Shown here piece after piece: positions 120-40,298 of a stretch of 40,420 nucleotides of DNA (its first letter is position 1; each line of letters begins with the position of its first letter). Location of the stretch: NCBI RefSeq assembly GCF_018256155.1, contig NZ_JAERLY010000019.1, positions 1-40,420 of the forward strand, in the 5' to 3' direction. The notes under the pieces were generated by a model, which saw only the letters and a program-made list of their open reading frames with translations, was not told the origin of the DNA and ran no database searches. Origin of the DNA: Gluconobacter sp. Dm-62 (GTDB lineage: Bacteria > Pseudomonadota > Alphaproteobacteria > Acetobacterales > Acetobacteraceae). The translations under genes were made by a program, and so were the position numbers.

Positions 120-1410
120 GGAGGGTTCGAAAAACCCTTGGCTCTGAGCTGTTCTGTGTGATTCCATTTCTTCGGCGTTGATTGGGGATGGTGGAAGATG
201 AAGCAGCCTGGTTTCTTTGATGTTGAAGAGCGCCTTGCTCGGCTGAGCGGGCTTGGCGATCAGCTGGAGGCCTTTTCCCGGACTGTGGATTTTGAGATGT
301 TCCGCCCTGATCTGGAGCTGGCTCTGGCCTATTCAGACGGAAGTAAAGGCGGACGTCCGCCGTTTGATCCGGTGCTGATGTTCAAAATTCTGGTCATCCA
401 GACGTTGAACACTTTGTCTGATGAACGGACAGAGTATCTGATCAACGACCGCCTGTCGTTCATGCGCTTTCTGGGATTGGGGCTGTCGGACCGCGTGCCG
501 GATGCCAAAACGGTCTGGCTGTTTCGTGAGCGTTTGACACAGGCGGGTGCCATTGAAAGGCTGTTTGACCGATTTGACGCGACCCTACGGAACGCCGGTT
601 ATCTCCCGATGTCGGGCCAGATCCTGGATGCAACACTGGTAGCCGCTCCAAAGCAGCGCAATACGAATGCCGAGAAGGCAGATCTCCGGGCAGGACGTAT
701 TCCCGAAGACTGGCAGGACAAGTCGGCAAAGCTGTCGCACAAGGATCGTCATGCGCGCTGGACGCTGAAGTTCACGAAAGCAAAACGGCAGGATGACGGG
801 AGTATGCCCGCAACGGATCTCGCTATCCCGTTCTTTGGCTACAAATCCCACGTGTCCATCGACCGGAAGTTTCGGTTCATCCGAAAATGGAAGACGACGG
901 ATGCCGCCGCCAGTGATGGTGCGCGATTGAGAGAGGGGCTGTTAGATAAAACCAATACGGCCTCAAGCGTTTGGGCTGATACAGCTTATCGCTCGAAAGC
1001 GAATGAGGACTTCATGGACAAAGAGGGTTTTGTCTCAAAGGTTCACAGAAAAAAGCCGCATCTCAAGCCTATGCCCCGACATATCCAGAAATCGAATGCT
1101 GGAAAGTCCGTGATCCGATCGCGCGTCGAGCACGTCTTTGCCGACCAGAAATCACAGACGGGATTGTTCATCCGAACTGTCGGTATCACCCGGGCCACCA
1201 TGAGGATCGGGCTGGCCAATATCGTCTACAACATGCGCCGCTTCCTCTTCCTCGAAAGATTGAACGCGAGCGCATAGTCATCCAGCGGGAGAGCAGTCCC
1301 CGATCTGCTCAAAACGCAGATCAAAAGCTCCCCCAAAAACCGTCAATCAAATCGCCAAAAGCCTGAAATCACGAGCCAGGCGCATCAACCAACGGTTCTT
1401 CGATCCCTCC
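120..1410 (+). mobile_element. Intact IS5-family insertion sequence
   Basis: The element is bounded by imperfect terminal inverted repeats. The left end at 120-136 reads GGAGGGTTCGAAAAACC; the right end at 1394-1410, read on the other strand, gives GGAGGGATCGAAGAACC. Four more bases outside (AGGT at 116-119, ACCT at 1411-1414) also pair. It holds one transposase gene. I could not identify an unambiguous target duplication. The right side runs directly into an IS1031-group transposase fragment, while the left flank (1-115) does not resemble the missing half of that fragment, so one side has probably been rearranged. Confidence 0.85.
198..1277 (+). CDS. IS5-family transposase (DDE)
   Basis: This 359-residue protein catalyses cut-and-paste movement of the surrounding element. 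The N-terminal part (about residues 40-115) has the IS5-type DNA-binding region with the GGRPPFDPVLMFK and DERTEYLINDRLSFMRFLGL motifs. The catalytic core has the first Asp in QILDATLV (D144), the second in WADTAYRS (D261) and the Glu in SRVEHVFADQK (E311), so the DDE triad is intact. Length is normal for the IS5 subgroup. The ATG follows a GGTGGAAG ribosome-binding sequence. With both ends present the element could still be active. It is the only complete transposase in the window. Confidence 0.93.
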   Translation: MKQPGFFDVEERLARLSGLGDQLEAFSRTVDFEMFRPDLELALAYSDGSKGGRPPFDPVLMFKILVIQTLNTLSDERTEYLINDRLSFMRFLGLGLSDRVPDAKTVWLFRERLTQAGAIERLFDRFDATLRNAGYLPMSGQILDATLVAAPKQRNTNAEKADLRAGRIPEDWQDKSAKLSHKDRHARWTLKFTKAKRQDDGSMPATDLAIPFFGYKSHVSIDRKFRFIRKWKTTDAAASDGARLREGLLDKTNTASSVWADTAYRSKANEDFMDKEGFVSKVHRKKPHLKPMPRHIQKSNAGKSVIRSRVEHVFADQKSQTGLFIRTVGITRATMRIGLANIVYNMRRFLFLERLNASA

Positions 1411-18555: not shown

Positions 18556-18816
18556 TCTTCTTCATTTAAAGCGGCTTGCAGCACTGCGCCAGATGGAAAT
18601 GTATTTTTCGACCATTTGGTTTGGGTTGTGATGCACAGAACCCCAATTTTTTAAGCGCTCCATGTTCATTGTCGATGTCCCTTTCCGGAAGCTTAAGAAG
18701 CTTCTTTTGTGCCCGAGATGTAAGCGTAACCGGACATGCTGCTTCCGCCTACTTCTACGACGTGGCTGGCCCGCTTTGCGTTGCCGGGAAGCGGACATAG
18801 GCGCATGATCCTCACC

Positions 18817-19555
18817 CTATGCGGCGGCTGCCTTCGTGCCAGTCTCGTCGGTTCGATATTCTCCCCATGCCTGCCGCAGGATCTGCAGCGCTGATGACAG
18901 GAATATGCCAGCCATGATCGCGGCCACCGCAAGGTCGGGCCATGCGCTGGTGGTGCTCCAGACGCCGAACGCCGCGGCCATGACGATCAGGTTGCCGATC
19001 GCATCGTTGCGAGAGCAGAGCCACACCGAGCGCACGTTGGCGTCGCCATCCTTGTAGGGCAGGAGCAGAAACACCGAGGCAAGGTTCGCGGCCAGCGCCA
19101 GAGCGCCGATCGCACCCATGATCTCGGCCTGCGGAACGCCGAGGATCAGCGTGTGGTAGACGGTGGACCCGAACACCCACAGCGCCATCAGCGACAGCGA
19201 GACGCCCTTGGCGAGTGCCGCCGTGGCTCGCGCCGATCACCGCCAGACTCAAACCGTAGGTGACGGTATCGGCCAGGAAGTCGAGTGCGTCGGCCTTGAG
19301 GGCTTGCGAGCCAGCGAGCTGTCCCGCCGCCATTTCGGTCACGAACATCGCGCCATTGATCGCGATCACCGTCCACAGGACACGCTTGTAGCGCGGGTCT
19401 ACACCGTCGAAGACCGGGACACCCTTCGGACAGCAAATATTCTCGACGGTGCCGCATGTCGTCACCTCGACGGTTGGTGTGACTGTTTTCGTGGGCACGA
19501 CCAGAGGTGGCGGAGCGCAACAGGCGGTCTCGGACTTGCAGCAGTTCTCAGACAT
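18817..19555 (-). pseudogene. Cation diffusion facilitator with Cys-rich N-terminus, frameshifted
   Basis: The first frame (from 19555) encodes a Cys-rich metal-binding head (NCCKS, ACCAPP, TTCGT, ICCPKG) and the first membrane helices, with the metal-site pattern ALDFLADTVTYGLSLAVIGAS. Homology then jumps frame near 19225-19240 to TAALAKGVSLSLMALWVFGS. It continues with YKDGDANVRSVWLCSRNDAIGN and ends after LRQAWGEYRTDETGTKAAAA at 18817. A few codons between GAS and TAALAKG seem lost as well. Unless rescued by frameshifting, the exporter is broken. It is divergent from a MerR gene and shares a MerR-type promoter with it, so its original role was metal (Zn/Cd/Co-type) efflux. Composition is more GC-rich than the flanks. 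Confidence 0.82.
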
Positions 19556-19576
19556 GGGTGACTCCTTCTCGGGATC

Positions 19577-19607
19577 ACCCTACAATCTCTAGCCACTAGA
19601 GCTTCAA
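19577..19607 (-). promoter_or_regulatory. MerR-type promoter and operator for the metal exporter
   Basis: Read on the minus strand, the -35 box TTGAAG (19602-19607) and -10 box TAGGGT (19577-19582) are 19 bp apart, the over-long spacing typical of MerR-activated promoters. Between them lies a perfect dyad, CTCTAG-TGG-CTAGAG (19587-19601), the expected regulator site. The exporter start codon follows with AAGGAG as ribosome-binding site. Confidence 0.85.
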
Positions 19608-19619
19608 GGGAAAAGCACC

Positions 19620-20027
19620 ATGAGGATCTCGATTGGCGAGTTGGCGCGGCGCACTGGGGTCAAGGTGCCGACGATCCGCTACTACGAAGGCGTCGGGCTT
19701 CTTCCGACACCGACACGAACGGAAGGGCGGCAAAGGCGCTTCGGTGCGGACGAGGTCGCCCGGCTCAACTTTATTCGTCATTCCCGCGAGCTGGGCTTCG
19801 AGGTCGCCGACATTCGTGAATTGCTGACGCTTAGCGAGCAGCCGGAGCGTTCCTGCGGCGAGGTGGACGCTATCGCCCGCCGCCACGTCGAGACTATTGA
19901 CCGACGGATTGGGAGGCTGGTGGCGCTGCGCGCCGAGCTGCAACGCTCGCTAGATCGGTGTGCGCGCGGTACGGTCGAGGAATGCCGGGTGATCGAAGTG
20001 CTGGGTTACGGGGACGACAGGGTTTAG
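19620..20027 (+). CDS. MerR-family heavy-metal-responsive regulator
   Basis: 135 residues. The N-terminal helix-turn-helix and wing read ISIGELARRTGVKVPTIRYYEG, then GLLPTPTRTEGRQRRFG. A long dimerisation helix and a metal loop follow. The cysteines at 79 (ERSCGEVD), 114 (DRCARG) and 122 (EECRVIE) match the spacing of metal-binding Cys in ZntR/CadR/PbrR-type sensors, so Zn, Cd or Pb is more likely than Cu or Hg. It is divergent from the exporter gene, 64 bases apart, with the MerR-type promoter in the gap. Its target gene is frameshifted here. The Tn3-type transposon inserted 21 bases after its stop codon. Confidence 0.9.
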   Translation: MRISIGELARRTGVKVPTIRYYEGVGLLPTPTRTEGRQRRFGADEVARLNFIRHSRELGFEVADIRELLTLSEQPERSCGEVDAIARRHVETIDRRIGRLVALRAELQRSLDRCARGTVEECRVIEVLGYGDDRV

Positions 20028-20048
20028 CTAAAGGCAGCTCAGAGTACC

Positions 20049-20086
20049 GGGGAGCAGTGAGAGGCTGTTCGAAAACGTACGCTAAG
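20049..20086. repeat. Left 38-bp Tn3-type inverted repeat
   Basis: Begins GGGGAGCAGTGAGAGGCTG and ends TTCGAAAACGTACGCTAAG. It pairs with 23805-23842 at 36 of 38 positions by hand comparison. The tnpA remnant stops 4 bases inside it. Confidence 0.93.
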
Positions 20087-20090
20087 GATT

Positions 20091-20268
20091 TTAGGAACCG
20101 GATTGCAACCGAAGAGGCCTGAAATTATCTCGCGGCGGCCGGATTTCGCCCCAAAGATAATCACCTGTCAGGCCAATATGCTCCCAGCCGAGTGGTGCTA
20201 CATGAGCAAGCACGTCATCGGGCACCGCGATGCCCGTCTGACGAAGATGCTGAGCGGCACGGTCCAGA
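20091..20268 (-). pseudogene. tnpA: Tn3-family transposase (TnpA), extreme C-terminal remnant
   Basis: On the minus strand the frame reads GLDRAAQHLRQTGIAVPDD, then VLAHVAPLGWEHIGLTGDYL and W-G-E...DNFRPLR before the stop. The LGWEHI-x-LTGDYxW block and terminal F-R-P-L-R are the characteristic end of Tn3-family transposases. Only about 58 of roughly 970 residues remain and all catalytic residues are gone. The break lies at about 20268, where the sequence passes directly into a resolvase fragment on the other strand. Confidence 0.85.
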
Positions 20269-20620
20269 CCTGACCAAACGCGGTGTCGGGTTGAAGGTCC
20301 TGGCGGGCGAAGGAGCCTCGATCGATACCACCACCGCAAATGGTCGCTTGATCTTCGCGATTTTTGCCGGACTGGCGGAGTTCGAGCGGGAATTGATCGT
20401 TGAACGCACACGCGCAGGTCTGGCTTCTGCACGTGCCCGAGGACGGGAGGGTGGCCGTCCCTTCAAGATGACCTTAGTAAACTTCGTCTGGCTCAGGCCG
20501 CCATGAGTGATCCTGAAACCCAGGTTGGAGATCTGTGTTCTGAACTGGGGATCAGCCGCCAGACGTTGTATCGACATGTCACTCCCGAGGGTAAAATCAG
20601 GCCGGATGGGGAAAAAACCT
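20269..20620 (+). pseudogene. tnpR: Serine resolvase (TnpR) fragment, frameshifted
   Basis: From about 20269 the frame reads LTKRGVGLKVLAGEGASIDT, TANGRLIFAIFAGLAEFERE and LIVERTRAGLASARARGREG-GRPFKMT. These are the middle and later part of the catalytic domain and the E-helix of a Tn3-type resolvase. A one-base shift near 20470 moves the reading to LSKLRLAQAAMSDPE and the C-terminal helix-turn-helix LCSELGISRQTLYRHVTPEG. The N-terminal region with the active Ser is missing. tnpA and tnpR point away from the joint, so a single deletion has removed both 5' ends and the res site between them. Confidence 0.87.
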
Positions 20621-20659
20621 CTGGCGCAAAAAACACGAAAAATCTCTCAAAACTGAGAC

Positions 20660-21811
20660 TTATGGCTTATCTCTGGTATGGGTAACGTGAGGATTGATCG
20701 ATACCAGCAGAAACGGCTGATGACTGCGGGAATGCCCCTGATGAAACATCGAAAGCCGGTCCAGTTGCGCAACAGGCAGCCAGAGACGACCGTCCAGAGC
20801 AAGACACGGTGCATCTGCCCAGTGCAGACGTGAATCCGAGATCAGTTTCGTGATCTTTCCCGAAACGTCTCTCCGATAGACGCCGTTATCCTTCAGATTG
20901 GTGAAGTAAAGGTTTCCTGCAGCATCCATGGCGCTGCCCCCGACTGGAGGTAAATCTGCCCAAGGCTTTACAGCCGCAGACAGATCGGTTGATGACACAC
21001 TGGGATCATCAAGCAACACTGTGGGAACTTGAGACCACGGTCCTTCAAGCGGCCCGAAATACAGCCATTTCCCGTCCGGACTGACTTCAAGCGGATCGAC
21101 ATTCACCAGAAGCGGCTGATGCGGACCGTTCTCCACGACGTGCCCGTCCATGACAATCGGTCGATCTGTCCGTGCGCGTGTGGAAACATCGTTGTCCAGA
21201 ACACGACGTGCCTGACCTGTTTTGATATCAAGAACGATCAGCGCGGCCTTGCCCGCATCCGTGAGATAGGCGTGCGTTCCGTTGAAACGGATATCGTCGA
21301 TATAGCTGCCCGCCTGCGCGATCTCTGGGCCCAGAGGATAGATCCGCCGCACATGACCTGTTGCCGGATCAATGCGGACCAGTTTGGCTCCTTCAGGTAT
21401 GGGAGCACCTCCAAAAGACGGAGTTCCAGTATCAACAACCCAGAGCGTGCCGTCAGGAGCAACGTGGAGGGCATTGACGCTGACAAACCGATGCGTTGCA
21501 TCCTGCCCGGGTTTCCAGCCATTCCAGTCAGCATCTGGAAAAGGCTTTATCTTTCCATTCTTTGTCAGAAGACCCACGGCCGGTCCGGAAAACCCGCTCC
21601 AGCGAGGGCCTGAGACAAACACATGACCGCCAGCAAGCGCTACGGCGTTCCAGTCTATTGCGTTAGTAGTCGCCTCAATCCTGATGGTCTGAGCACGGGC
21701 AGGATCAGGATGCCCGCATACCCCAACGAAACCCGTGAAAACGGCAATGGCGATCCTGCGCAGGCCTCTTTTTGTGAAAGCATGCGGCTGATTCTGTTTC
21801 ATGACTCCCAT
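20660..21811 (-). CDS. Secreted Yellow/major-royal-jelly-protein-like beta-propeller protein
   Basis: About 383 residues from the ATG at 21811 (MGVMKQN); this start lies just after the cupin stop and gives a proper signal peptide (RIAIAVFTGFVGVCGH...ARAQT). The mature part has the MRJP/Yellow pattern: HVFVSGPRWSGFSGP, PFPDADWNGW, FVSVNALHVAPDGTLWVVDTG, later RPIVMDGHVVEN, VDPLEVSPDGKWLYFGPLEG and GSAMDAAGNLYFTNLKDN. Bacterial members are often labelled SMP-30/gluconolactonase-like or L-dopachrome-tautomerase-related. The enzymatic activity is unknown. It is the last gene of a three-gene minus-strand run inside the transposon, and only its first 20-odd codons survive in the second cargo copy. 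Confidence 0.85.
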   Translation of the reverse strand: MGVMKQNQPHAFTKRGLRRIAIAVFTGFVGVCGHPDPARAQTIRIEATTNAIDWNAVALAGGHVFVSGPRWSGFSGPAVGLLTKNGKIKPFPDADWNGWKPGQDATHRFVSVNALHVAPDGTLWVVDTGTPSFGGAPIPEGAKLVRIDPATGHVRRIYPLGPEIAQAGSYIDDIRFNGTHAYLTDAGKAALIVLDIKTGQARRVLDNDVSTRARTDRPIVMDGHVVENGPHQPLLVNVDPLEVSPDGKWLYFGPLEGPWSQVPTVLLDDPSVSSTDLSAAVKPWADLPPVGGSAMDAAGNLYFTNLKDNGVYRRDVSGKITKLISDSRLHWADAPCLALDGRLWLPVAQLDRLSMFHQGHSRSHQPFLLVSINPHVTHTRDKP

Positions 21812-21815
21812 GCCG

Positions 21816-22250
21816 TCAGATCCCTGCGATAAAACCGGACGGCGTACCGTCGGCAGGATCCACGAACACCACGTCATCTGGCGCCCGTCGCGGCGTGTCG
21901 ATAGCAAGGAAAACAACTGGCTGGCTCAGAATGCGGGGTACGGCATGCACGGCCCGACGGGGGAACACCAGAAGATGGCCGGGTGCAAACGGGGCTTCCT
22001 CCTTGGGATCATCGATCCAAAACGTGCCTGTCCCGGAGAGGACATGAAGCACTTCATCGCACTGGGTATGATAATGCGGCGGTACTTCCTGATAAATCCT
22101 GAAGACCCGGATACTGGCTTCCGGCTTGTCAGTCAGATAGGTGTCCAGCAGCATCGTGTCCGCCGTTTCGGGAAACGCAGCGGCAATTTTATTCAGATCG
22201 AAGCGACCTCCCGTCCGGTTCAGGGTCATCAGATGTTCTTCGTCATTCAT
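21816..22250 (-). CDS. Cupin-domain protein
   Basis: About 144 residues from the ATG at 22250 (MNDEEHLM), preceded by GAGGAGCAGAC. The single cupin barrel has motif 1 (PPHYHTQCDEVLHVLSGTG, with two His and a Glu as metal ligands) and motif 2 (FAPGHLLVFPRRAVHAVP, with the second-motif His). A mononuclear metal dioxygenase, isomerase or binding role is possible; the substrate is unknown. It sits between the dehydrogenase and the MRJP-like gene and overlaps neither. An otherwise similar copy at 38361 lacks the motif-1 half. Confidence 0.87.
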   Translation of the reverse strand: MNDEEHLMTLNRTGGRFDLNKIAAAFPETADTMLLDTYLTDKPEASIRVFRIYQEVPPHYHTQCDEVLHVLSGTGTFWIDDPKEEAPFAPGHLLVFPRRAVHAVPRILSQPVVFLAIDTPRRAPDDVVFVDPADGTPSGFIAGI

Positions 22251-22302
22251 GAGGTCTGCTCCTCTCAAGCGCTTTGACTGTTTTCGTCACGGTTCTCTCC
22301 GC

Positions 22303-23322
22303 TCAGGCAGGAAAACTTTCGAGCACGATCTTGCCTTTGGCCTGACCACTCTCGATCAGAGCGTGAGCCTCTCGCAGATTGGCGGCGGTGATCGCGCCAA
22401 GATTTTTGCCGAGCGTCGTACGGAGACGCCCTTCGTCCAGAAGGCGCGACACCTCGTTCAGGAGTTTCCCTTGTGTGCTGATGTCTGCCGTTCCGAACAG
22501 TGAGCGGGTGAACATCAGCTCCCAATGCAGGGACAGGCTTTTGCGCTTGAGGGGTACAGCATTGAGTTCAGCAGGGTCATCAATCAGGCCGAAATGTCCC
22601 TGAGGGGCTAGAAGTTCGACGATCTCTGCCAGGTGCCGATCTGTCTGCGTCGTGGAAAAAACAAAACCGGGGGCGCCCGTAGGAAGGGCAGCAACCTGTG
22701 CGGCCAGAGGCTTGCTGTGATCGATCACGTAATCTGCCCCGAGAGATGTGACCCAGTCCTGCGTTTCGGGGCGCGAAGCCGTGGCAATGACCGTGATATC
22801 AGTCAGAACCTTGGCCAGCTGGATCGCCATGGAACTGACCCCGCCTCCGCCCCCAATGATCAATATGGACGGCGTCGTTCCCGGGACAGGCCGACGAATG
22901 TCCAGGCGATCGAAAAGCATCTCCCAGGCGGTGATTGCTGTCAGCGGTAAGGCGGCGGCTTCGGCCCAGTTCAGGGAGCGGGGTTTGCGACCAACAATCC
23001 GTTCATCGACCAGATGAAACTCCGCGTTGGTCCCTGAGAGATTGATCGCCCCCGCATAAAAGACCTCATCGCCGACAGAAAAATCCGTGACGTCCGGTCC
23101 GGTGCCGACGACAACGCCTGCGGCATCCCAGCCCAGGACACGCCACTGACCCGCCTCCGGCGTTGCGCTGCGGCGGACTTTTGTATCAACCGGATTGACC
23201 GACACGGCCCTGATTTCCACCAGAAGATCCCGGCCCGAAGGAACAGGTTTCGGCAGATCGATGTCCTGAAGGGACGCCGGGTTTTCGATGGGAAGCGGCG
23301 TCTGATAACCGATGGCCCGCAT
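22303..23322 (-). CDS. Zinc-type alcohol dehydrogenase / quinone oxidoreductase family protein (cargo copy 1)
   Basis: A 339-residue medium-chain dehydrogenase/reductase. The N-terminal GroES-like domain (LLVEIRAVSVNPVDTKVRRS, GWDAAGVVVGTGPDV) lacks the usual catalytic zinc ligands, as in quinone oxidoreductases. The Rossmann part has the NADPH motif IIGGGGGVSSMAIQLAKVL and GADYVIDHSKPL. The family reduces quinones or enals/enones with NADPH. The gene is divergent from the DUF24/HxlR regulator across 100 bases; the same pairing is known for redox-sensing regulators of quinone reductases such as QorR and YodB. It shares 317 of 339 residues with the second copy at 35889 by hand count. Confidence 0.92.
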   Translation of the reverse strand: MRAIGYQTPLPIENPASLQDIDLPKPVPSGRDLLVEIRAVSVNPVDTKVRRSATPEAGQWRVLGWDAAGVVVGTGPDVTDFSVGDEVFYAGAINLSGTNAEFHLVDERIVGRKPRSLNWAEAAALPLTAITAWEMLFDRLDIRRPVPGTTPSILIIGGGGGVSSMAIQLAKVLTDITVIATASRPETQDWVTSLGADYVIDHSKPLAAQVAALPTGAPGFVFSTTQTDRHLAEIVELLAPQGHFGLIDDPAELNAVPLKRKSLSLHWELMFTRSLFGTADISTQGKLLNEVSRLLDEGRLRTTLGKNLGAITAANLREAHALIESGQAKGKIVLESFPA

Positions 23323-23422
23323 GATGTCTGCTCCTCTGTTGAATGAGGAGAAGAGTGAGCACTATGCTGTTTTCAGACAAGAACGCACTTTTAACGCCCA
23401 TAGTGTCGGAAATGATACCGTT
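23323..23422. promoter_or_regulatory. Divergent promoter, dehydrogenase / HxlR regulator
   Basis: A 100-bp gap also conserved in length in the second copy (35789-35888). It contains the inverted pair CACTATG (23360-23366) and CATAGTG (23399-23405), a candidate regulator site; in copy 2 the first arm is altered to CATTATA. The block TTTCAGACAAGAACGCACTT between the arms is identical in both copies. Confidence 0.5.
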
Positions 23423-23809
23423 ATGACCCGTATCCGCCATCAGTCGCTCGATTGCAGCCCCGGCTGCGCTGTTGAAGCAACGCTTCAGCTCATCGACGGG
23501 AAATGGAAAGGCGTGATCCTCTATCATCTGCTTCAGGGGACCTTACGCTTCAACGCCATCCGCAAGCGCCTGCCCAATATCACCCAGAGAATGCTGACGA
23601 CCCAGCTTCGCGAACTGGAGCGCGACGGGTTTGTCTTACGGACGGTCTACCCGGAAGTCCCGCCAAAGGTGGAATACAGCCTCACCCCACGCGGGCGGAC
23701 CCTTGAGCCCGTCATCATGGCTCTCAAAGCCTGGGGCGATGAGCACACAGAGTTCGGACATGTTCCTGAGATCTGCGCCGATATGAAAGGCTCTCCAACA
23801 AACTCTTAG
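23423..23809 (+). CDS. HxlR/DUF24-family redox-type regulator (cargo copy 1)
   Basis: About 128 residues from the ATG at 23423 (MTRIRHQS). The winged helix includes CAVEATLQLIDGKWKGVILYHL, LRFNAIRKRLPNITQRMLTTQL and the wing REVYPEVPP-like VYPEVPPKVEYSLTPRG. The N-terminal Cys in PGCAVE matches the conserved redox-sensing Cys of DUF24 proteins (YodB, HypR, QorR); a second Cys is in LDCSPG. It probably represses the divergent dehydrogenase-cupin-MRJP run until an electrophile or quinone modifies the Cys. The stop codon TAG (23807-23809) lies inside the right Tn3-type inverted repeat. Confidence 0.9.
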   Translation: MTRIRHQSLDCSPGCAVEATLQLIDGKWKGVILYHLLQGTLRFNAIRKRLPNITQRMLTTQLRELERDGFVLRTVYPEVPPKVEYSLTPRGRTLEPVIMALKAWGDEHTEFGHVPEICADMKGSPTNS

Positions 23810-23842
23810 CGTACGTTTTCGAACAACCTCTCACCGCTCCCC
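23805..23842. repeat. Right 38-bp Tn3-type inverted repeat
   Basis: Begins CTTAGCGTACGTTTTCGAA and ends CAACCTCTCACCGCTCCCC, complement of the left repeat with two changes. GTACC follows at 23843-23847 as target duplication. It contributes the stop codon of the HxlR gene. Confidence 0.93.
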
Positions 23843-23847
23843 GTACC

Positions 23848-24269: not shown

Positions 24270-24611
24270 ATGTCAAAGCTGCAGACCGTTGTCGAACTGC
24301 CTGAATTCATAAAGCGGGCAAAAGCCCTGATGTCAGACGACGATCGTATGGCTCTGATTAACATGCTCGCTGCAATGCCAGATGCTGGCCTTTCTTTAGG
24401 CGGCGGTCTGCGAAAGGTCCGTTTTTCCCGCGAGAATGGTGGGAAGAGGGGAGGGTACAGAACTCTCTACGTTTTTGGTGGAAGACAGATGCCTCTGTTT
24501 CTCCTGACTGTTTTTGCCAAAAACGAGAAAGACAATCTGACACGATCTGAACAGGCCGCCCTGGTAGAGTTGAGCAAGACGCTTGTTGCGAAATACGGAG
24601 AACCATCATGA
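24270..24611 (+). CDS. RelE/HigB-type toxin
   Basis: 113 residues of the RelE/ParE superfamily. The core strands read LGGGLRKVRFSRENGGKRGGYRTLYVFGGRQMPLFLLTVFAKNEKDNLT, split by basic residues expected to contact mRNA or the ribosome; KNEKDNLTRSEQAAL is the usual C-terminal block of the HigB-2/RelE subgroup. It precedes its antitoxin gene, as in HigBA-like systems, and the two overlap by four bases (ATGA at 24608-24611). Expected action is ribosome-dependent mRNA cleavage, by family analogy. Confidence 0.88.
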   Translation: MSKLQTVVELPEFIKRAKALMSDDDRMALINMLAAMPDAGLSLGGGLRKVRFSRENGGKRGGYRTLYVFGGRQMPLFLLTVFAKNEKDNLTRSEQAALVELSKTLVAKYGEPS

Positions 24612-24904
24612 GCGCTTATGACAGCATTCTGCAGGGGCTAAATGAGGCTCTTGCCTATTCGGACGCTCCGGCCGACGACTGTGTGACCCACCAGGTGCGT
24701 GTTCCGTCGGTTGACGTGGCGGCCATCAGAACCCGGACCGGACTCTCTCAGGCCCAGTTTGCCAGAAGCATCGGGGTCGCCAAGGGGACCCTTCTGAACT
24801 GGGAGCATGGCCGTCGTCAGCCAACCGGACCGGCTCAAGTTTTGCTGGCGATGTTGGATAAGCGACCGTCGTTAGTGAGTGAGCTGCTTTCTGCCGTTCG
24901 TTGA
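24608..24904 (+). CDS. HigA-like antitoxin with XRE helix-turn-helix
   Basis: 98 residues. The C-terminal half is an XRE DNA-binding domain: VDVAAIRTRTGLSQAQFARS, then IGVAKGTLLNWEHGRRQPTG and PAQVLLAMLDKRP. The N-terminal 40 residues should wrap the toxin. It is translationally coupled to the toxin gene. It should bind the palindrome at 24240-24258 and repress the pair. The two genes appear intact, so the module may stabilise this transposon-rich region. Confidence 0.88.
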   Translation: MSAYDSILQGLNEALAYSDAPADDCVTHQVRVPSVDVAAIRTRTGLSQAQFARSIGVAKGTLLNWEHGRRQPTGPAQVLLAMLDKRPSLVSELLSAVR

Positions 24905-34169: not shown

Positions 34170-34348
34170 ATCATCCCCCTAGGCAAACAGCGTCGGCCCC
34201 AAGGAAACGCGTGTTTATCTCTCCGATTTTACCCTAAAACTGTAAGTCTCGCTATCGGCCTAACCCGCCTGCAAGAGATCGTGTTGCTTATGTCCGTTAT
34301 GCGGAAAGCTGTTCATCGGTGAGTATGTCAAATATGAGGGCACTGCTG

Positions 34349-34410
34349 CCTGTCTGTTCAGGTTTCCTCGAGCAGACAGGTGGCTCTTGGGGGAAGGCGA
34401 ATATCTGCGT
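34349..34410. repeat. Structured direct repeat, copy B
   Basis: CCTGTCTGTTC (34349-34359) and GAGCAGACAGG (34370-34380) form an 11-bp stem with one G-U pair around a 10-nt loop. It is followed by a G run and AGGCGAATATCTGC. The loop differs from copy A while the stem and tail are kept. Confidence 0.72.
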
Positions 34411-34523
34411 TTCAACGAGAACCATGAGGAAGCTGGCGTCACCGCCAATACCGGAGCGTTACACATCCTTACCGAGGCAGCGTGTAAAAATAATCGTTCC
34501 GGATGTGCAGTCTGTCGTCCCGG

Positions 34524-34682
34524 TCACCCATTGGCGGAAGCAAGTTTCAGTTTCACCATGACGACTTTGGGATGGTCGCCGATGCGCTCGACATCTAAGA
34601 GGCCGGATGCCTCGGCCAATTCGGACAGGCGGCTATAGCCGTAGTTGCGTGCGTCGAAGTCCGGTGCCTGTTTGGCAAGAAC
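34524..34682 (-). pseudogene. C-terminal LOTUS/OST-HTH remnant of an NYN-domain protein
   Basis: On the minus strand the frame reads KQAPDFDARNYGYSRLSELA, then EASGLLDVERIGDHPKVVMV. The FDARNYGYxKLSxLxEAxGL block is the LOTUS (OST-HTH) RNA-binding domain found at the end of bacterial NYN (PIN-like nuclease) proteins. Only about 50 residues are present. The IS3-family OrfB fragment joins it directly upstream, so the IS has cut or replaced the rest of the gene. Confidence 0.7.
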
Positions 34683-34825
34683 AGCTCTTTGTCTTTCTGG
34701 CTGCGCGCACAAGGTTTTTTCTGCCTGGCAACGGTTGCATAATAGACAGATGGCGCAATCGGCAGGATCTTGCAGATTGACCCGACACCATATGTCTGCC
34801 GATGCTCCTCAATGAAGCGCGTCAT
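34683..34825 (-). pseudogene. IS3-family OrfB, N-terminal fragment
   Basis: Reads MTRFIEEHRQTYGVGSICKI, then LPIAPSVYYATVARQKKPCA and RSQKDKEL. This is the normal start of an IS3-family OrfB (transposase catalytic subunit) up to the residues just before the conserved YGxRKVW block. It overlaps the end of OrfA by four bases, as required for the programmed frameshift of this family. The sequence then passes into the NYN/LOTUS remnant, so the integrase core is missing. Confidence 0.82.
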
Positions 34826-35145
34826 GGCCCGAACCGGCGGTCGAGTTCCGCCTGGGCAAAATACGCAGAAGCCTTACGCAGGATTTCATTGGCCTGCCGC
34901 AATTCGCGGTTCTCTCGCTCCAGTTGCCTGATCTTTTCCCGATCAGGCAGTTCACTCACCGCAGGCGCATTGGCCCGCTCATGCAGACGGGTCCATTTTG
35001 ACAGCGTGTCAGGATGAATATCCAGCTTTGGCGCTATCATCATCACCGCAGACCAGCGTGATGGATGGCTCTTCTCTTCCTCCAGAACCATGCGAGCCGC
35101 ACGTTCACGAAATTCAGGCGGAAAACGCTTCGATTTGTTGCTCAT
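34822..35145 (-). CDS. IS3-family OrfA (transposase DNA-binding subunit)
   Basis: 107 residues. The helix-turn-helix starts RFPPEFRERAARMVLEEEKS and includes LDIHPDTLSKWTRLHERANA. A leucine-zipper region, REKIRQLERENRELRQANEILRKASAYFA, follows and is typical of the group. The frame is intact, but its OrfB partner is cut after about 45 residues, so the element cannot move by itself. The 5' end of the element is presumably near 35160-35180. Confidence 0.88.
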   Translation of the reverse strand: MSNKSKRFPPEFRERAARMVLEEEKSHPSRWSAVMMIAPKLDIHPDTLSKWTRLHERANAPAVSELPDREKIRQLERENRELRQANEILRKASAYFAQAELDRRFGP

Positions 35146-35195
35146 GAATTCTTCTTACCTCTCGGGTCGTTCTGTCTCCACAAAACCCGGGGCAA

Positions 35196-35287
35196 TTCAG
35201 ATTGCCTTTTACAACCAACAGCGCCCTGATCAGGCATTGAAGATGATGACCCCGGATGCGGCTTACGCCGCTACATTAACCGCATGA
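35196..35287 (+). pseudogene. IS3-family OrfB, extreme C-terminus
   Basis: IAFYNQQRPDQALKMMTPDA followed by AYAATLTA and a stop is the usual C-terminal end of IS3-type OrfB (the Y-N-xx-R-P-H-Q-A-L block). It lies in the opposite orientation to the neighbouring OrfA and so derives from a separate copy or an inversion. Confidence 0.75.
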
Positions 35288-35319
35288 CCTGAGCAGAAAG
35301 CGGTGGGTCATTACATGGT

Positions 35320-35407
35320 CGTACAGAAGAACCAGCGTGATCAAGCAAAACCAGAAAAATGGAATCACAGTGGATCCCTCAATAACAGCAGGTTTTTAGA
35401 ACCCTCC
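35320..35407 (-). mobile_element. End of an IS5-type element (relic)
   Basis: Read on the minus strand, GGAGGGTTCTAAAAACC (35391-35407) is followed 39 bases from its start by GTGATTCCATTT. The intact IS5 element at 120 has the same arrangement (GGAGGGTTCGAAAAACC, then GTGATTCCATTT after 38 bases). No transposase remains. This end supplies the stop codon of the second HxlR gene. Confidence 0.7.
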
Positions 35408-35788
35408 ATCTGTTGGCGAGCCCTTCAGGTCGGCGCAGACCTCAGGAACACGTCCGAACGTCGTATGCTCATCGCCCCATCTCTTGAGAGTCATAATGAC
35501 GGGCTCAAGGGTCCGACCGCGTGCGGTCAGACTGTATTCCACCTTTGGCGGAACTTCCGGGTAAACCGTCCGCAACACAAACCCGTCCCGCTCCAGCTCG
35601 CGAAGCTGGGTGGTCAACATTCTCTGGGTGATATTGGGCAAACGTTTGCGGATGGCGTTGAAGCGCAGGGTCCCCTGAAGCAGGTGATAGAGGATCACAC
35701 CTTTCCATTTTCCGTCGATGAGTTGAAGCGTTGCTTCAACAGCGCAGCCGGGGCTGCAATCAAGTGATTTATGGCGGATGCGGGTCAT
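35396..35788 (-). CDS. HxlR/DUF24-family redox-type regulator (cargo copy 2)
   Basis: About 130 residues from the ATG at 35788 (MTRIRHKS). It is nearly identical to the copy in the Tn3-type transposon: the Cys in PGCAVE and the helix-turn-helix are unchanged. Differences cluster near the C-terminus (ALKAWGDEHTEFGHVPEIC versus TLKRWGDEHTTFGRVPEVC). The last residues, TDGGF and the TAA stop, come from the IS5-type end that replaced the Tn3 repeat here. It is divergent from the second dehydrogenase copy across a conserved 100-bp gap, so regulation should be alike and cross-talk between the two copies is likely. Confidence 0.88.
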   Translation of the reverse strand: MTRIRHKSLDCSPGCAVEATLQLIDGKWKGVILYHLLQGTLRFNAIRKRLPNITQRMLTTQLRELERDGFVLRTVYPEVPPKVEYSLTARGRTLEPVIMTLKRWGDEHTTFGRVPEVCADLKGSPTDGGF

Positions 35789-35888
35789 AACGGTATCATT
35801 TCCGACACTATGGGCGTTAAAAGTGCGTTCTTGTCTGAAAACAATATAATGCTCACTCTTCTCCTCATTCAACAGAGGAGCAGACATT

Positions 35889-36908
35889 ATGCGGGCCATC
35901 GGTTATCAGATGCCTCTTCCCATCGAAAATCCGGCAGCCCTTCAGGACATCGATCTGCCAAAACCTGTTCCCACGGGGCGTGATCTTCTGGTGGAGATTA
36001 AAGCTGTCTCGGTCAATCCGGTTGATACAAAAGTCCGCCGCAGCGCAACACCAGAGGCGAGTCAATGGCGCGTTCTGGGCTGGGATGCTGCGGGTGTTGT
36101 CGTTGGCACCGGACCAGACGTGATGGATTTTTCTGTCGGCGATGAGGTCTTTTATGCGGGTGCGATCAATCGCCCGGGGACTAACGCTGAGTTTCATCTG
36201 GTCGATGAGCGGATTGTCGGACGCAAACCCCGCTCTCTGAACTGGGCTGAAGCCGCGGCCTTACCCCTGACAGCAATCACTGCCTGGGAGATGCTTTTCG
36301 ATCGCCTGGATATTCGGCGCCCTGTCCCGGGAACAACGCCGTCCATTCTAATTATCGGAGGCGCAGGTGGGGTCAGTTCTATGGCGATCCAGTTGGCCAA
36401 GGTTCTGACTGATATCACGGTCATTGCTACGGCTTCGCGCCCCGAAACGCAGGACTGGGTCGCATCTCTTGGGGCAGATTACGTGATCGATCACAGTAAG
36501 CCTCTGGCCGCACAGGTTGCTGCCCTTCCTACGGGCGCTCCCGGTTTTGTTTTTTCCACGACGCAGACAGATCGACACCTGGCAGAGATCGTCGCACTTC
36601 TTGCCCCACAGGGGCATTTCGGCCTGATCGATGATCCGGCTGAACTTAATGCTCTACCTCTGAAGCGAAAAAGCCTCTCGCTGCACTGGGAACTGATGTT
36701 TACGCGTTCACTGTTCGGAACGGCAGACATCAGCGCTCAGGGGAAACTCCTGAACGACGTGTCGCGTCTTGTAGAGGAAGGTCGTCTTCGCACGACGCTC
36801 GGTAAAGAGTTCGGGCTCATCACTGCGGCCAATCTGCGGGATGCTCACGCCCTGATCGAGAGCGGTCAGGCTAAAGGCAAGATCGTACTCGAGGGTTTTG
36901 CAGCCTGA
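35889..36908 (+). CDS. Zinc-type alcohol dehydrogenase / quinone oxidoreductase family protein (cargo copy 2)
   Basis: 339 residues, the same length as the copy at 22303-23322. Twenty-two substitutions are counted by eye, including IIGGAGGVSS for IIGGGGGVSS in the cofactor loop and a cluster near the C-terminus (GKEFGLITAANLRD versus GKNLGAITAANLRE). All likely functional motifs are kept and the leader GAGGAGCAGAC is identical, so this copy is probably active. It is followed not by the cupin but by an SDR gene 79 bases downstream. Confidence 0.92.
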   Translation: MRAIGYQMPLPIENPAALQDIDLPKPVPTGRDLLVEIKAVSVNPVDTKVRRSATPEASQWRVLGWDAAGVVVGTGPDVMDFSVGDEVFYAGAINRPGTNAEFHLVDERIVGRKPRSLNWAEAAALPLTAITAWEMLFDRLDIRRPVPGTTPSILIIGGAGGVSSMAIQLAKVLTDITVIATASRPETQDWVASLGADYVIDHSKPLAAQVAALPTGAPGFVFSTTQTDRHLAEIVALLAPQGHFGLIDDPAELNALPLKRKSLSLHWELMFTRSLFGTADISAQGKLLNDVSRLVEEGRLRTTLGKEFGLITAANLRDAHALIESGQAKGKIVLEGFAA

Positions 36909-36987
36909 AATTATATTTCGATGACCTTACACGAAGAGAAAGCCTTCCCATTTTTCTGAAATTCGAAATCTCAAAATGGAGATCAAC

Positions 36988-37746
36988 ATGAAACTGACAG
37001 ACAATACCATACTGATTACTGGAGGTGGTTCCGGCATCGGTCGTGCCCTTGCCGAAGCATTTCATCAGAATGGCAACAAGGTCATTATTGCCGGGCGTCG
37101 CCGTTTAAGGCTTGATGAGGTTACAGCAGCGAATCCTGGCATGGAGGCCATTGAACTGGATCTCGAAATTCCGGCTGATATCCAGAACGCTGCGGAGCAA
37201 ATTCAACGAAATTACCCGTCGTTGAACGTGCTTATCAACAATGCCGGAATCATGTTGCCAGATACAGCGGCCGGGCGAATAGATGACAATCTTCTGACCT
37301 CAACCTTCACCACTAATTTTGCTGCTCCGATTCGACTGACTTCTGCTCTCATGCCGCACCTTAAGGCACAGTCCCAATCAACCATTATCTACAATACTTC
37401 CGGACTGGCCTTTATTCCGCTTGCACTGACAGCAGTTTATTCTGCATCTAAAGCCGCTCTCCATTCTTACGTAATGTCGCAGCGTTTTCTGCTTAAGGAC
37501 ACGAACATCGACGTCATCGAGATCGCACCGCCGTGGGTGCGGACCGAACTGATGAACAGTCAAGAAGCAGAAGCCGCTGTCCCTCTAAAGAAATTTATTT
37601 CCGATACTATGGCTCTTTTGGCCACAGAGAAGAACGAAATCATCGTTGATGAAGCAAAAAAATTTCGCGAGGCTTCAGGCCCGCAAGAATATGAATTCGT
37701 CGAAAGTTTTAATGAGAAAATGCAAGCACTTTTCCAAAATGGATAG
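36988..37746 (+). CDS. Short-chain dehydrogenase/reductase (SDR, DltE-like)
   Basis: About 252 residues from the ATG at 36988 (MKLTDNTI), 6 bases after GGAG; an in-frame ATG at 36976 overlaps that ribosome-binding site. The cofactor motif is ILITGGGSGIGRALAEAF, followed by LNVLINNAGIM (NNAG) and the active-site pattern with Ser in YNTSGLAF and Tyr-x3-Lys in AVYSASKAAL. The Arg after the first glycine motif (AGRRRLRL) suggests NADPH. It has no counterpart in the Tn3-type copy. It lies directly after dehydrogenase copy 2 and probably shares its HxlR-controlled transcript. Confidence 0.9.
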   Translation: MKLTDNTILITGGGSGIGRALAEAFHQNGNKVIIAGRRRLRLDEVTAANPGMEAIELDLEIPADIQNAAEQIQRNYPSLNVLINNAGIMLPDTAAGRIDDNLLTSTFTTNFAAPIRLTSALMPHLKAQSQSTIIYNTSGLAFIPLALTAVYSASKAALHSYVMSQRFLLKDTNIDVIEIAPPWVRTELMNSQEAEAAVPLKKFISDTMALLATEKNEIIVDEAKKFREASGPQEYEFVESFNEKMQALFQNG

Positions 37747-37970
37747 GGAGGGGGCATCTATACCTGTCTGGTAAATAAAAAAGGCTATCATACGGCATGT
37801 CATCTGTTTGCGTGCCGTATAACCCCTGTGACCACAAATGGGATCACAATTGATGAGTTACTAGAGATACCGACATACTGGAGAAAAGGTTCAAATCCGC
37901 ACTCACATGTTTCACTGACTTGGTATTGCAGCAAGCAGCCTGATCGTTTCTTGCTGGGTATTTAATCCCT

Positions 37971-38141
37971 TCATTTGATGGGGGAATTGAGGATGAATGT
38001 TTCTGGCTCTGAAGCCCATATCCTGCAGATGTATTCGTAAAGCGTGAGTCTTAGCTCGAAATGATTGGCGAACATGAAGTCATTGAGGTGCGTTCTCAAC
38101 AGATCATAGTTGCTGTAATGGAAATATTTCACGGTTTGTCC
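37971..38141 (-). pseudogene. IS481-family transposase, C-terminal fragment
   Basis: On the minus strand: TVKYFHYSNYDLLRTHLNDF, MFANHFELRLTLYEYICRIW and ASEPETFILN. This is the end of an IS481-type transposase (pattern VKRxHYDxHxQLRxHLxDFV...TPYExIxxxWxxEPExFxLNP), with the short R-L-K-x-L-x-G-L stretch before TPYE lost. The rest of the element is absent. Confidence 0.75.
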
Positions 38142-38360
38142 CCTTCGACATCGGGTAGACGCGAAATCCCGTAACTCTGAATACCGCGTTGTAGAGCTCA
38201 ACGTGTCAGATGCCTCTCGCGTGCGAAAAACGATTGGACAGTCAGGCAATATCGCCTTCGTGCATCTCTGAACCGTAGAAAAAGGCGAGATTATAGTGCT
38301 GCATCAGGTCGCCGATACTGCTGCCATACAGAAACTTCTTGGAAGTGGAGAACTGGTGTT
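38142..38360. other. Spacer before cupin remnant
   Basis: No gene is seen. Part of an IS481-like end may continue to about 38250. The last 40 bases include GGAAGTGGAG before the cupin start codon, unlike the GAGGAGCAGAC leader of copy 1, so the joint of the second cargo copy lies just upstream of 38361. Confidence 0.35.
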
Positions 38361-38636
38361 ATGAATGCCGAAGAGCATCTAATGACCTTGAACCGGACGG
38401 GTGGAAGGTTCAATCTCAATGAAATTGCCGCCGCGTTCCCGGAAACGGCGGAGGAGGCCCCGTTTGCACCCGGTCATCTTCTAGTGTTCCCCCGTTGGGC
38501 GGTGCATGCCGTGCCCCGTATTCTGAGCCATCCAATCGTTTTTCTTGCCATTGATACGCTGCGACGGGCGCCAGACGACGTGGTGTTCGTGGATCCTGCC
38601 GACGGTACGCCGTCCGGTTTTATTGCGGGGATCTGA
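38361..38636 (+). pseudogene. Cupin (cargo copy 2) with in-frame deletion of the metal-binding motif
   Basis: 91 residues, starting MNAEEHLMTLNRTGGRFNLN and ending DPADGTPSGFIAGI, nearly the same as the cupin at 21816. Between FPETA and EEAPFAPGHLLVFP, 53 residues are missing in frame, including motif 1 with its two His and Glu ligands (HYHTQCDE in copy 1). Reading is open but the barrel cannot form normally. The joint has a short GGA microhomology. It may still be translated, but is unlikely to work as a metal cupin. Confidence 0.85.
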
Positions 38637-38640
38637 TATC

Positions 38641-38751
38641 ATGGGATTCATGAAACAGAAGCGACGGCAGGCTTTCCGAGCAACTAGCCTGCGCAGTATC
38701 GCTGCTAACATCAGACCGATTATCCCGGTAAGCGCACAGTTACCCAATTGA
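38641..38751 (+). pseudogene. Start of MRJP-like propeller gene (cargo copy 2), truncated
   Basis: MGFMKQKRRQAFRATSLRSI matches MGVMKQNQPHAFTKRGLRRI, the signal-peptide start of the propeller gene at 21811. The similarity ends near 38706 and an unrelated tail runs to TGA at 38751. More than 90% of the gene is missing. The spacing from the cupin stop (4 bases) is the same as in copy 1. Confidence 0.8.
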
Positions 38752-38790
38752 TTGTTGACTTAGGAAATGATCGTTCTCTATGTTGGTTTC

Positions 38791-39405
38791 ATGAACAATA
38801 TAGTCTCATCTTTCCCCAGCCCGGCTATGGGCCGGCCGCGTGCCTTCGATATGGAAACGGTTATCGCACGTACCGTGCCGGTATTTCGCGAGTATGGATA
38901 TGCTGGCGCCTCGATCGATCGTCTTAAAACCGCTACCGGGCTCACCGCAGGCAGCCTTTACAAAGCATTCACTGACAAGCGGGGCGTGTTCGAAGCGGCG
39001 TTCACGCATTATGTGAAGCAAAGACGGCAAGATCTTGCAGCTCGGCTTCTGAAGGCGAGCACCGGACGTGAACGCATTGCCGAGAGCCTCCGCTTCTATT
39101 TGGAAGCAGCTTCCGGCTTCGAAGGGCGGCAAGGTTGTCTCGTTCTAGCAAGCCTGATCGAAGCCACGACGCTGGACGGTGCCCTTCATGAGAGACTCAG
39201 CGATACACTGGCTACTAACCGAGCGGCGCTGATCACCATGCTGCGGGAGGGTCTGCAGGACGGATCAATCCGTGCCGAACTGCCGATCGAGGCCAGTGCC
39301 GATCTTCTTCTTAGCCTACTCCAAGGTTTTCGTGCCGTGGGCAAGCTTCACGATCCGGGGGACCATGACGCGTTGATAGGCATGTCTCTCAAGATATTAG
39401 ACTGA
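38791..39405 (+). CDS. TetR-family regulator
   Basis: About 204 residues. The helix-turn-helix is FDMETVIARTVPVFREYGYA, GASIDRLKTATGLTAGSLYK and AFTDKRGVFEAAF, followed by a C-terminal domain of the TetR_C type with GCLVLASLIEATTLDGALHERL. A -35 TTGACT at 38758 and a TATGTT 17-18 bases later suggest that transcription begins close to the ATG at 38791. The start could instead be 38827 (MGRPRAFD), which is the usual family start. It lies 14 bases upstream of the hydrolase gene in the same direction and probably controls that small operon. Confidence 0.88.
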   Translation: MNNIVSSFPSPAMGRPRAFDMETVIARTVPVFREYGYAGASIDRLKTATGLTAGSLYKAFTDKRGVFEAAFTHYVKQRRQDLAARLLKASTGRERIAESLRFYLEAASGFEGRQGCLVLASLIEATTLDGALHERLSDTLATNRAALITMLREGLQDGSIRAELPIEASADLLLSLLQGFRAVGKLHDPGDHDALIGMSLKILD

Positions 39406-39419
39406 GAATAGGACGAATT

Positions 39420-40298
39420 ATGATCGAACACCTCAACACTGCCCCGTTCAAGCATGCTTTCGAGACGGTTGATGGATTGCGGCTGCACTATGTAACGTGC
39501 GGATCGCAAGACGCTGAACCACTCGTTCTCCTTTCGGGCTATCCACAAAGCTGGTTTACTTGGCGTAGGGTCATGCCTCTCTTGGCAGACCGGTTCCGTG
39601 TCGTCGCTATTGACCTTCCTGGCCAAGGGGATTCCGATAAACCGCTTGATGGCTATGACACTGGAACGGTTGCGCGCCGCGTCCACGGCCTCGTCGCACG
39701 TGTCGGTCTGACCCATTACAACCTTGCGGCACATGACATCGGTGCTTGGGTCGGACTGCCCTACGCGTTGATGTACCCAAACGAAGTCAGCCGTCTCGCG
39801 CTCCTTGATGCCGGCATACCCGGTGTTACATTGCCCGATATGTTGCCAAACGCACCCGACCAAGCGTGGCGGACATGGCATTTCGCGTTCCATGCTATAC
39901 CTGACCTTCCTGAGGCTCTGATCACAGGACGTGAGCGCGTTTACCTCGACTGGTTCTTGCGTCGTAAGGCTGCCAACCCGCTAAGTTTCAGCGATGCGGA
40001 TATTGACGAATATGTCCGCATTTTCAGTCTTCCCGGTGCATTACGTGCAGGCCTCGCTTTCTATCGCGCGGCAAGTATATCCGCTGAGCAGAATCGTGCG
40101 CTGGTCCGTGATAGAAAACTCAGCATGCCCGTGCTCGCCGTCAGTGCTGACCAAGGATCGATCCCTGATATGGTCGCCCCGCTTAGACCGTTCGTAGACG
40201 ATCTACGCGGCAACACAGTGTCGTCCAGCGGTCACTTCATCCCCGAAGAACAGCCAGTGGCTGTTGCTCAATTGTTCGGAGAATTCTTTGCGGGCTAA
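39420..40298 (+). CDS. Alpha/beta hydrolase, epoxide-hydrolase-like
   Basis: 292 residues. The nucleophile elbow AAHDIGAWVG carries Asp106, so this is an epoxide hydrolase or haloalkane dehalogenase type and not a serine esterase. The oxyanion motif is LLSGYPQSW (Ser in place of the common His of HGxP). The catalytic His is H272 in SSSGHFIPEEQP, and AVSADQGS holds the probable acid. A cap region with FYRAAS contains a candidate epoxide-activating Tyr. It likely hydrolyses an organic epoxide in the cytoplasm. It follows the TetR gene by 14 bases, so the two form a self-regulated detoxification unit. Confidence 0.88.
   Translation: MIEHLNTAPFKHAFETVDGLRLHYVTCGSQDAEPLVLLSGYPQSWFTWRRVMPLLADRFRVVAIDLPGQGDSDKPLDGYDTGTVARRVHGLVARVGLTHYNLAAHDIGAWVGLPYALMYPNEVSRLALLDAGIPGVTLPDMLPNAPDQAWRTWHFAFHAIPDLPEALITGRERVYLDWFLRRKAANPLSFSDADIDEYVRIFSLPGALRAGLAFYRAASISAEQNRALVRDRKLSMPVLAVSADQGSIPDMVAPLRPFVDDLRGNTVSSSGHFIPEEQPVAVAQLFGEFFAG

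Follow-up and report, generated by a model that had tools for sequence, protein, structure and literature searches.

A tnpA-deleted Tn3-family transposon of Gluconobacter with an apparently captured regulator, oxidoreductase, cupin and propeller operon

The 40,420-nucleotide stretch of Gluconobacter sp. Dm-62 analysed here (contig NZ_JAERLY010000019.1, positions 1 to 40,420; hereafter the window) contains a 3,794-bp element that derives from an autonomous Tn3-family transposon by internal deletion. Taken as a whole, the locus is very probably best explained as a stranded deletion derivative of an autonomous Tn3 transposon of acetic acid bacteria, carrying an operon captured from resident copies. 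In bacteria associated with vinegar, kombucha and fruit, this single transposon lineage was traced across its autonomous copies, one probable cointegrate, an element-free site and deletion derivatives, and to a likely source of the cargo. The ends of the element and the remains of its transposition genes are as follows.

20044..20048, no strand: left target-site duplication (TSD), GTACC, from the sequence; a single GTACC stands at the uninterrupted site in Gluconobacter cerinus NBRC 3267 (genome G303)
20049..20086, + strand: left inverted repeat (IRL), 38 bp, from comparison of the ends
20049..20268, + strand: counterpart of the leftmost 220 bp of the parent element (92.7% in the alignment), running into tnpR at 20267/20268
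20097..20270, - strand: tnpA remnant, the last 58 codons of a Tn3-family transposase, aligned at 90% to the parent protein of 991 aa (residues 933-990)
20267..20650 (end approximate), + strand: serine-resolvase (tnpR) fragment, N-terminal part gone and frame broken, from alignment and profile match
23805..23842, - strand: right inverted repeat (IRR), 38 bp, from comparison of the ends
23843..23847, no strand: right TSD, GTACC, from the sequence

The two inverted repeats are identical at 36 of 38 positions (two mismatches), and both copies of a perfect GTACC duplication were located around them, as a preliminary description of this DNA had reported. The same description held that the segment moved as a unit by Tn3-type transposition, which is upheld by an empty site in a relative, by perfect 5-bp TSDs around related copies elsewhere and by the same ends bounding tnpA and tnpR; the linkage of the repeats to Tn3-family genes at other places likewise favours this claim. 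The empty site was found by searching the joined flanks in 26 genomes of the genus, five of which gave some match and one a match across the joint (contig C8 of G. cerinus NBRC 3267), where 770 bp align ungapped over a single GTACC, 700 bp to the left and 70 bp to the right of the joint. Of the plasmid collection, three records were matched by the joined flanks, none across the joint. The same element, at 99.9% and with flanks identical to those in the window, is present on a plasmid of Gluconobacter oxydans H24, and a copy in G. kondonii NBRC 3266 has both the insertion site and the deletion of the window copy.

The best copy of the parent is that of G. cerinus NBRC 3267, which measures 7,313 bp, is flanked by TTATG on both sides and encodes a transposase, a serine resolvase, an MRJP, a cupin, a SnoaL/NTF2 protein, an oxidoreductase and an HxlR regulator, with all cargo genes open. 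Its transposase is of the DDE type (991 aa; PF01526, 487 bits; NF033527, 1010 bits against a cut-off of 500) and its resolvase matches PF00239 at 145 bits. Terminal inverted repeats of Tn3-family elements are about 38 bp long, start with GGGG and finish with TAAG, and the parent ends conform to this pattern. As judged from its sequence, the parent has every Tn3-family feature examined (transposase, ends, 5-bp TSD and resolvase), with res counted apart: the tnpA-tnpR gap, inspected for the three-subsite structure of res, holds one imperfect close dyad. In its long DDE transposase, serine resolvase, 38-bp ends, 5-bp TSD and passenger genes the parent thus resembles Tn3-family transposons at large, for which a layout with divergent tnpA and tnpR is given in PMC7157771. 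Among the best 40 of at least 5,000 plasmid records matched by the transposase, most are unnamed Tn3 elements. The same ends also enclose transposase, resolvase and a five-gene cargo in Komagataeibacter nataicola DS12, in two copies on pKNA08 and one on pKNA09, the latter with TCGTA at both sides, and a different tnpA-less derivative on pC of Komagataeibacter xylinus is flanked by TATCA at both sides. Four different 5-bp duplications (GTACC, TTATG, TCGTA and TATCA) were accordingly seen across the copies.

The two pKNA08 copies (L003 4621-11919 and L042 3283-10585) are direct repeats with swapped flanks, TAATT/GATGC and GATGC/TAATT, which matches the cointegrate form known for Tn3-family transposons. 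Plasmid typing assigns pKNA08 two replicons and two relaxases. Furthermore, the joined GATGC flanks give a 594-nt ungapped alignment (85.5%) with a transposase gene of the window (198-1277, PF01609) that is uninterrupted. The arrangement is probably a Tn3 cointegrate; recombination of copies residing on two plasmids would also fit.

Relative to the parent, the window copy lacks about 3.16 kb that held the larger part of tnpA, the gap between tnpA and tnpR and the first part of tnpR; the two sides of the junction overlap by 2 bp. Where Tn3-family transposons have an intact tnpA and a resolution system, the window copy retains 58 tnpA codons and a truncated tnpR, and the gap with the presumed res region is deleted. 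As most of tnpA is missing and the tnpR fragment is frame-broken, this copy is unable to transpose alone; besides the 58-codon tail, no relative of the parent transposase was found in the source draft genome. The earlier designation of the element as non-autonomous therefore holds for the window copy, which has no working tnpA, but describes a secondary state, since autonomous relatives carry the same cargo. With its ends kept, the element would be expected to move solely if a matching transposase arrives, and the resulting cointegrate would not be resolvable in cis by the window copy.

A serious contender, though one to which we give somewhat less than an even chance, is that tnpA was already missing when the element moved, an autonomous relative having mobilised it in trans. 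Such mobilisation would agree with the finding that ends and a perfect TSD enclose tnpA-less units at two sites, namely GTACC (window, H24 and G. kondonii) and TATCA (K. xylinus pC). However, the two tnpA-less derivatives carry different deletions, and the three GTACC copies share both deletion and site, so that a single insertion followed by deletion in place fits equally well.

The cargo of the window copy and its second, decayed counterpart are made up as follows.

20660..21802, - strand: MRJP/Yellow-type propeller protein, 380 aa, with a secretion signal (by eye); PF03022, 54.9 bits (cut-off 19.8)
21816..22250, - strand: cupin, 144 aa, with an HxHx4E...H metal motif (by eye); PF07883
22264..22290 (about), - strand: scar of an NTF2/SnoaL gene, approximately its first nine codons, as in resident operons, from alignment
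22303..23322, - strand: MDR-family oxidoreductase (adh_fam_1), 339 aa; TIGR02817, 547 bits (cut-off 284); PDB 4dvj
23323..23422, no strand: divergent regulatory region with inverted half-sites CACTATG / CATAGTG; 72 of 99 columns invariant in 18 copies
23423..23809, + strand: HxlR/DUF24 regulator, 128 aa, with its stop codon within IRR; PF01638, 123 bits
35411..38702, + strand: decayed second cargo copy, from alignment

All four cargo genes named in the preliminary description (HxlR, oxidoreductase, cupin and MRJP) were recognised by their family profiles, and the 58-codon transposase tail, the resolvase fragment, the NTF2 scar and the second cargo copy are added to it here. The HxlR gene most likely starts at 23423 (128 aa) rather than at the open reading frame start of 23312; a coding N-terminal extension from 23312 is unlikely because variation among 18 copies shows no third-position bias (codon positions 1, 2 and 3 vary in 13, 6 and 8 of 33 columns, respectively).

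The best PDB match of HxlR is YybR of Bacillus subtilis (129.9 bits), which we take to be HypR, and Cys15 of the cargo regulator is aligned with its Cys14. Both Cys11 and Cys15 are kept in all 17 copies translated. The HxlR domain and an N-terminal cysteine are shared with HypR, a regulator of the redox-sensing MarR/DUF24 (HypR/YodB) type, and related regulators respond to quinones, diamide or hypochlorite, according to PMC10458429 and PMC11633110. SydR of Sinorhizobium meliloti, another regulator of this kind presented in the same papers, similarly shares an intergenic control region with its neighbouring target gene; its operator TATCGCGATA is absent from the window intergenic region. The divergent control region differs at 11 of 99 positions from two Komagataeibacter loci, as against approximately 18-20% in the two adjoining genes. 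At 23323-23422 it is highly conserved in transposon, resident and Komagataeibacter copies, the window having CACTATG-N32-CATAGTG; a single operator of that form could not be assigned, as both half-sites vary among copies.

The oxidoreductase is devoid of cysteine and hence has no cysteine zinc ligand. For the MRJP, a structure model of mean pLDDT 88.9 was compared using Foldseek, by which an uncharacterised Anabaena protein ranked best, followed by mosquito dopachrome conversion enzyme and royal jelly MRJP1 and then by other propellers, including lactonases. The cargo protein has the propeller fold in common with the Aedes enzyme and MRJP1 at 13-16% identity, and differs from them in being bacterial and in lying in an operon with a redox-type regulator. 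Dopachrome conversion is an activity of some MRJP/Yellow proteins. A role in redox or quinone stress is plausible from the regulator, the enzyme class and the modelled propeller fold, and we hold with slightly better than even confidence that the cargo is a redox or electrophile detoxification unit. It is rather unlikely, if worth retaining, that the cargo instead represents a sugar- or lactone-metabolism module in which the propeller serves an oxidative sugar metaboliser as a gluconolactonase-like secreted hydrolase: a PF08450 SGL match falls just below its cut-off (25 against 26.3 bits) and lactonase structures occur among the Foldseek matches, but these are outscored by dopachrome conversion enzyme and MRJP1, and the regulator is of the HypR/DUF24 redox-sensor type.

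Passengers named for the Tn3 family in the part of PMC7157771 at hand are resistance, virulence and catabolic genes, whereas the passenger here is a resident operon of regulator, enzymes and propeller; as far as those named passengers allow a judgement, this cargo is unusual for the family. No description of the cargo or the element was found among the literature matches listed from a licence-limited library, which comprised titles and abstract starts for a few word combinations.

MRJP copies of at least 83% identity number 11, in 10 of the 26 genus genomes (the source genome included). Three of them lie between two ends, one has a decayed right end and seven have no end within the stretch read, although in one of these seven the contig terminates inside the operon. 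A left flank is common to five of the eight oriented loci (the seven end-less ones and the decayed one), one non-sharing locus having just 651 bp of flank for comparison. In genome G306 the operon has ffh, rpsP, rimM and trmD among its neighbours, and this locus is therefore chromosomal. Additionally, two Komagataeibacter plasmid loci carry HxlR-oxidoreductase-(NTF2)-cupin at approximately 80%, with no MRJP annotated alongside and no end-like sequence better than 16 mismatches. Genome G317 has a decayed transposon copy (L074 7577-10946) on a 1.5-Mb contig, in which a remnant of tnpR persists and the right end has 6 mismatches.

HxlR is 128 aa long in all seven of the translated copies that bear IRR, its last residues at IRR being TNS; the resident Gluconobacter proteins (117-136 aa) have other endings in all six translated, four of which are alike. 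Similarly, the resolvase-MRJP junction is similar among the aligned transposon copies and different from that of the residents. These common junctions suggest that the operon was captured once, by an ancestor of the transposon. The preliminary description had regarded the same four genes at the same locus without repeats as damaging to its claim; operons without ends do exist, but at other loci, and they are likely the source of the cargo rather than a refutation of the transposon. The reverse direction, by which the end-less operons are old insertions stripped of their ends and the transposon is the operon source, appears improbable. It would accommodate the decayed insertion on the 1.5-Mb contig of G317 and the window's second copy, which has a transposon-like HxlR end without an inverted repeat, but resident hxlR genes continue beyond the IRR junction into endings of their own, the left flank is shared among loci as given above, and the two Komagataeibacter plasmid loci are devoid of both the ends and an annotated MRJP.

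Following the putative capture, the cargo alleles have been swapped with those of other copies, as is evident from a mosaic pattern. The window copy and that of G. kondonii, alike in site and deletion, differ at 0 of 642 positions on the left, 233 of 2909 in the cargo and 0 of 243 on the right. In steps of 300 nt the window cargo is nearest alternately to residents (up to 99.3%) and to the G. sphaericus transposon (99.3%), and the right flank is likewise mosaic. Approximately nine NTF2 codons remain between cupin and oxidoreductase in the six resident operons aligned and in the decayed G317 copy; the same scar occurs in the window copy, one position of it differing from residents G306 and G311, and the NTF2 gene is kept in the transposons of G. 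cerinus, G. sphaericus, K. xylinus and K. nataicola. Furthermore, trees of MRJP, of oxidoreductase and of the whole cargo do not separate the transposon copies from the resident ones, several nodes being weak. The mosaic differences and the non-separating trees suggest that homologous recombination overwrote the cargo while the ends around it were inherited. Among the literature matches listed for mosaic cargo in Tn3 elements, as far as titles and abstract starts show, resistance plasmids are the main subject.

The cargo genes also evolve under purifying selection, with median dN/dS (ratio of nonsynonymous to synonymous rates) of 0.084 for the oxidoreductase (90 pairs), 0.076 for HxlR (60), 0.085 for the cupin (102), 0.190 for the MRJP (6 pairs) and 0.187 for NTF2 (13 pairs). 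These values exclude copies whose extracted length was unlike that of the reference, along with pairs whose dS did not exceed 0.05, which left six pairs for the MRJP; full-length copies with an internal stop (the pKNA09 cupin) were retained.

The following course of events would account for these results. An ancestral transposon would have captured a resident operon of MRJP, cupin, SnoaL/NTF2, MDR oxidoreductase and divergent HxlR, the last hxlR codons becoming fused to its right end and the end of the MRJP gene to the tnpR side. Copies inserted at several sites with 5-bp duplications, as the TSDs and the one empty site show, and in the GTACC lineage one deletion removed most of tnpA, the tnpA-tnpR gap (the presumed place of res) and the tnpR start. 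The cargo has exchanged alleles with other copies, presumably via homologous recombination. By analogy with its family, HxlR would keep the divergent promoter repressed as long as its N-terminal cysteine is unmodified; upon modification, the reductase, cupin, SnoaL-like protein and secreted propeller may act on quinone- or enone-like compounds. Combining these elements, we tentatively propose, as a possibility falling somewhat short of probable, that the transposon acts as an allele shuttle: having captured a whole resident stress operon once, it would pass on its ends and insertion sites by inheritance, its cargo being repeatedly overwritten by copies on chromosomes or plasmids through homologous recombination. 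One recombining gene pool would then extend across Gluconobacter and Komagataeibacter, and the cargo would constitute a mobile quinone or electrophile defence for life on polyphenol-rich fruit and tea. With the lineage traced here, it becomes possible to ask whether a redox-controlled operon can be a selectable passenger of Tn3 elements and how frequently homologues elsewhere in the genome overwrite such passengers.

Several observations weigh against these interpretations. The deletion at GTACC may have preceded or followed the insertion, the homology to the right of the empty site is short, with similarity stopping after 70 bp, and the direction of capture is one that we infer. The transposase of one pKNA08 copy is split into two open reading frames, frameshifts affect the oxidoreductase and MRJP genes of the K. 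nataicola copies (the cupin and NTF2 genes of pKNA09 being broken as well), and an internal stop interrupts the resident MRJP gene of G311. In the whole-cargo tree the four NTF2-bearing transposon copies cluster at 99% bootstrap, from which it appears that exchange has not wiped out all history of the transposon cargo. As for function, the second HypR cysteine is not conserved, the position of YybR Cys49 being a leucine in the window HxlR, and the redox switch may for that reason differ from that of HypR; identity is 11-22% for the top-ranking propeller matches, and lactonases occur among the matches.

The distribution of the ends was assessed separately. The inner 21 nt gave two matches in the window (up to three mismatches) and none in 100 shuffles, and the full 38-bp end occurs solely as IRL and IRR in the 3.46-Mb draft genome (up to three mismatches) and in three of the 299 family genomes searched, the source genome included (up to two mismatches). 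A search of the species-genome collection with the inner core yielded 27 stretches. That the repeats are chance or insertion sequence-related structures around an ordinary plasmid operon, a notion to which the frequent transposase genes and fragments around the locus might lend themselves, has next to no likelihood and was ruled out by the chance expectation of zero for the inner 21 nt, by the tnpA/tnpR elements with the same ends at other sites and by the element-free site.

Related Tn3 elements occur in sphingomonads (Sphingopyxis flava L032 and Croceicoccus L017), with ends four mismatches from the consensus used and with related tnpA and tnpR; the best of the sphingomonad plasmid records reach about 74% transposase identity. 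They differ in measuring 4.93 kb end-to-end (L017 2922-7854, L032 194-5126), in their unmatched 5-bp flanks and, for L017, in another passenger open reading frame without a Pfam match. In K. xylinus NBRC 15237 (L018 4670-4901), 232 bp lie between related ends (2 and 6 mismatches) with unmatched 5-bp flanks, resembling a miniature inverted-repeat transposable element.

Within the window, the insertion is flanked by a MerR regulator beside a cation-efflux gene and by a RelE-type toxin/helix-turn-helix antitoxin pair (18812-20027 and 24270-24904). The second cargo copy at 35411-38702 has no inverted repeat, the best end-like match in 34200-39500 having 17 mismatches. Its HxlR and oxidoreductase genes are open (94% protein identity), the former ending like that of the transposon copies, and an SDR gene lies between the oxidoreductase and pieces of the cupin, along with an NTF2 remnant at 38207-38364 and the start only of the MRJP. 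On the H24 plasmid, oxidoreductase, regulator and SDR genes are arranged as in this second copy.

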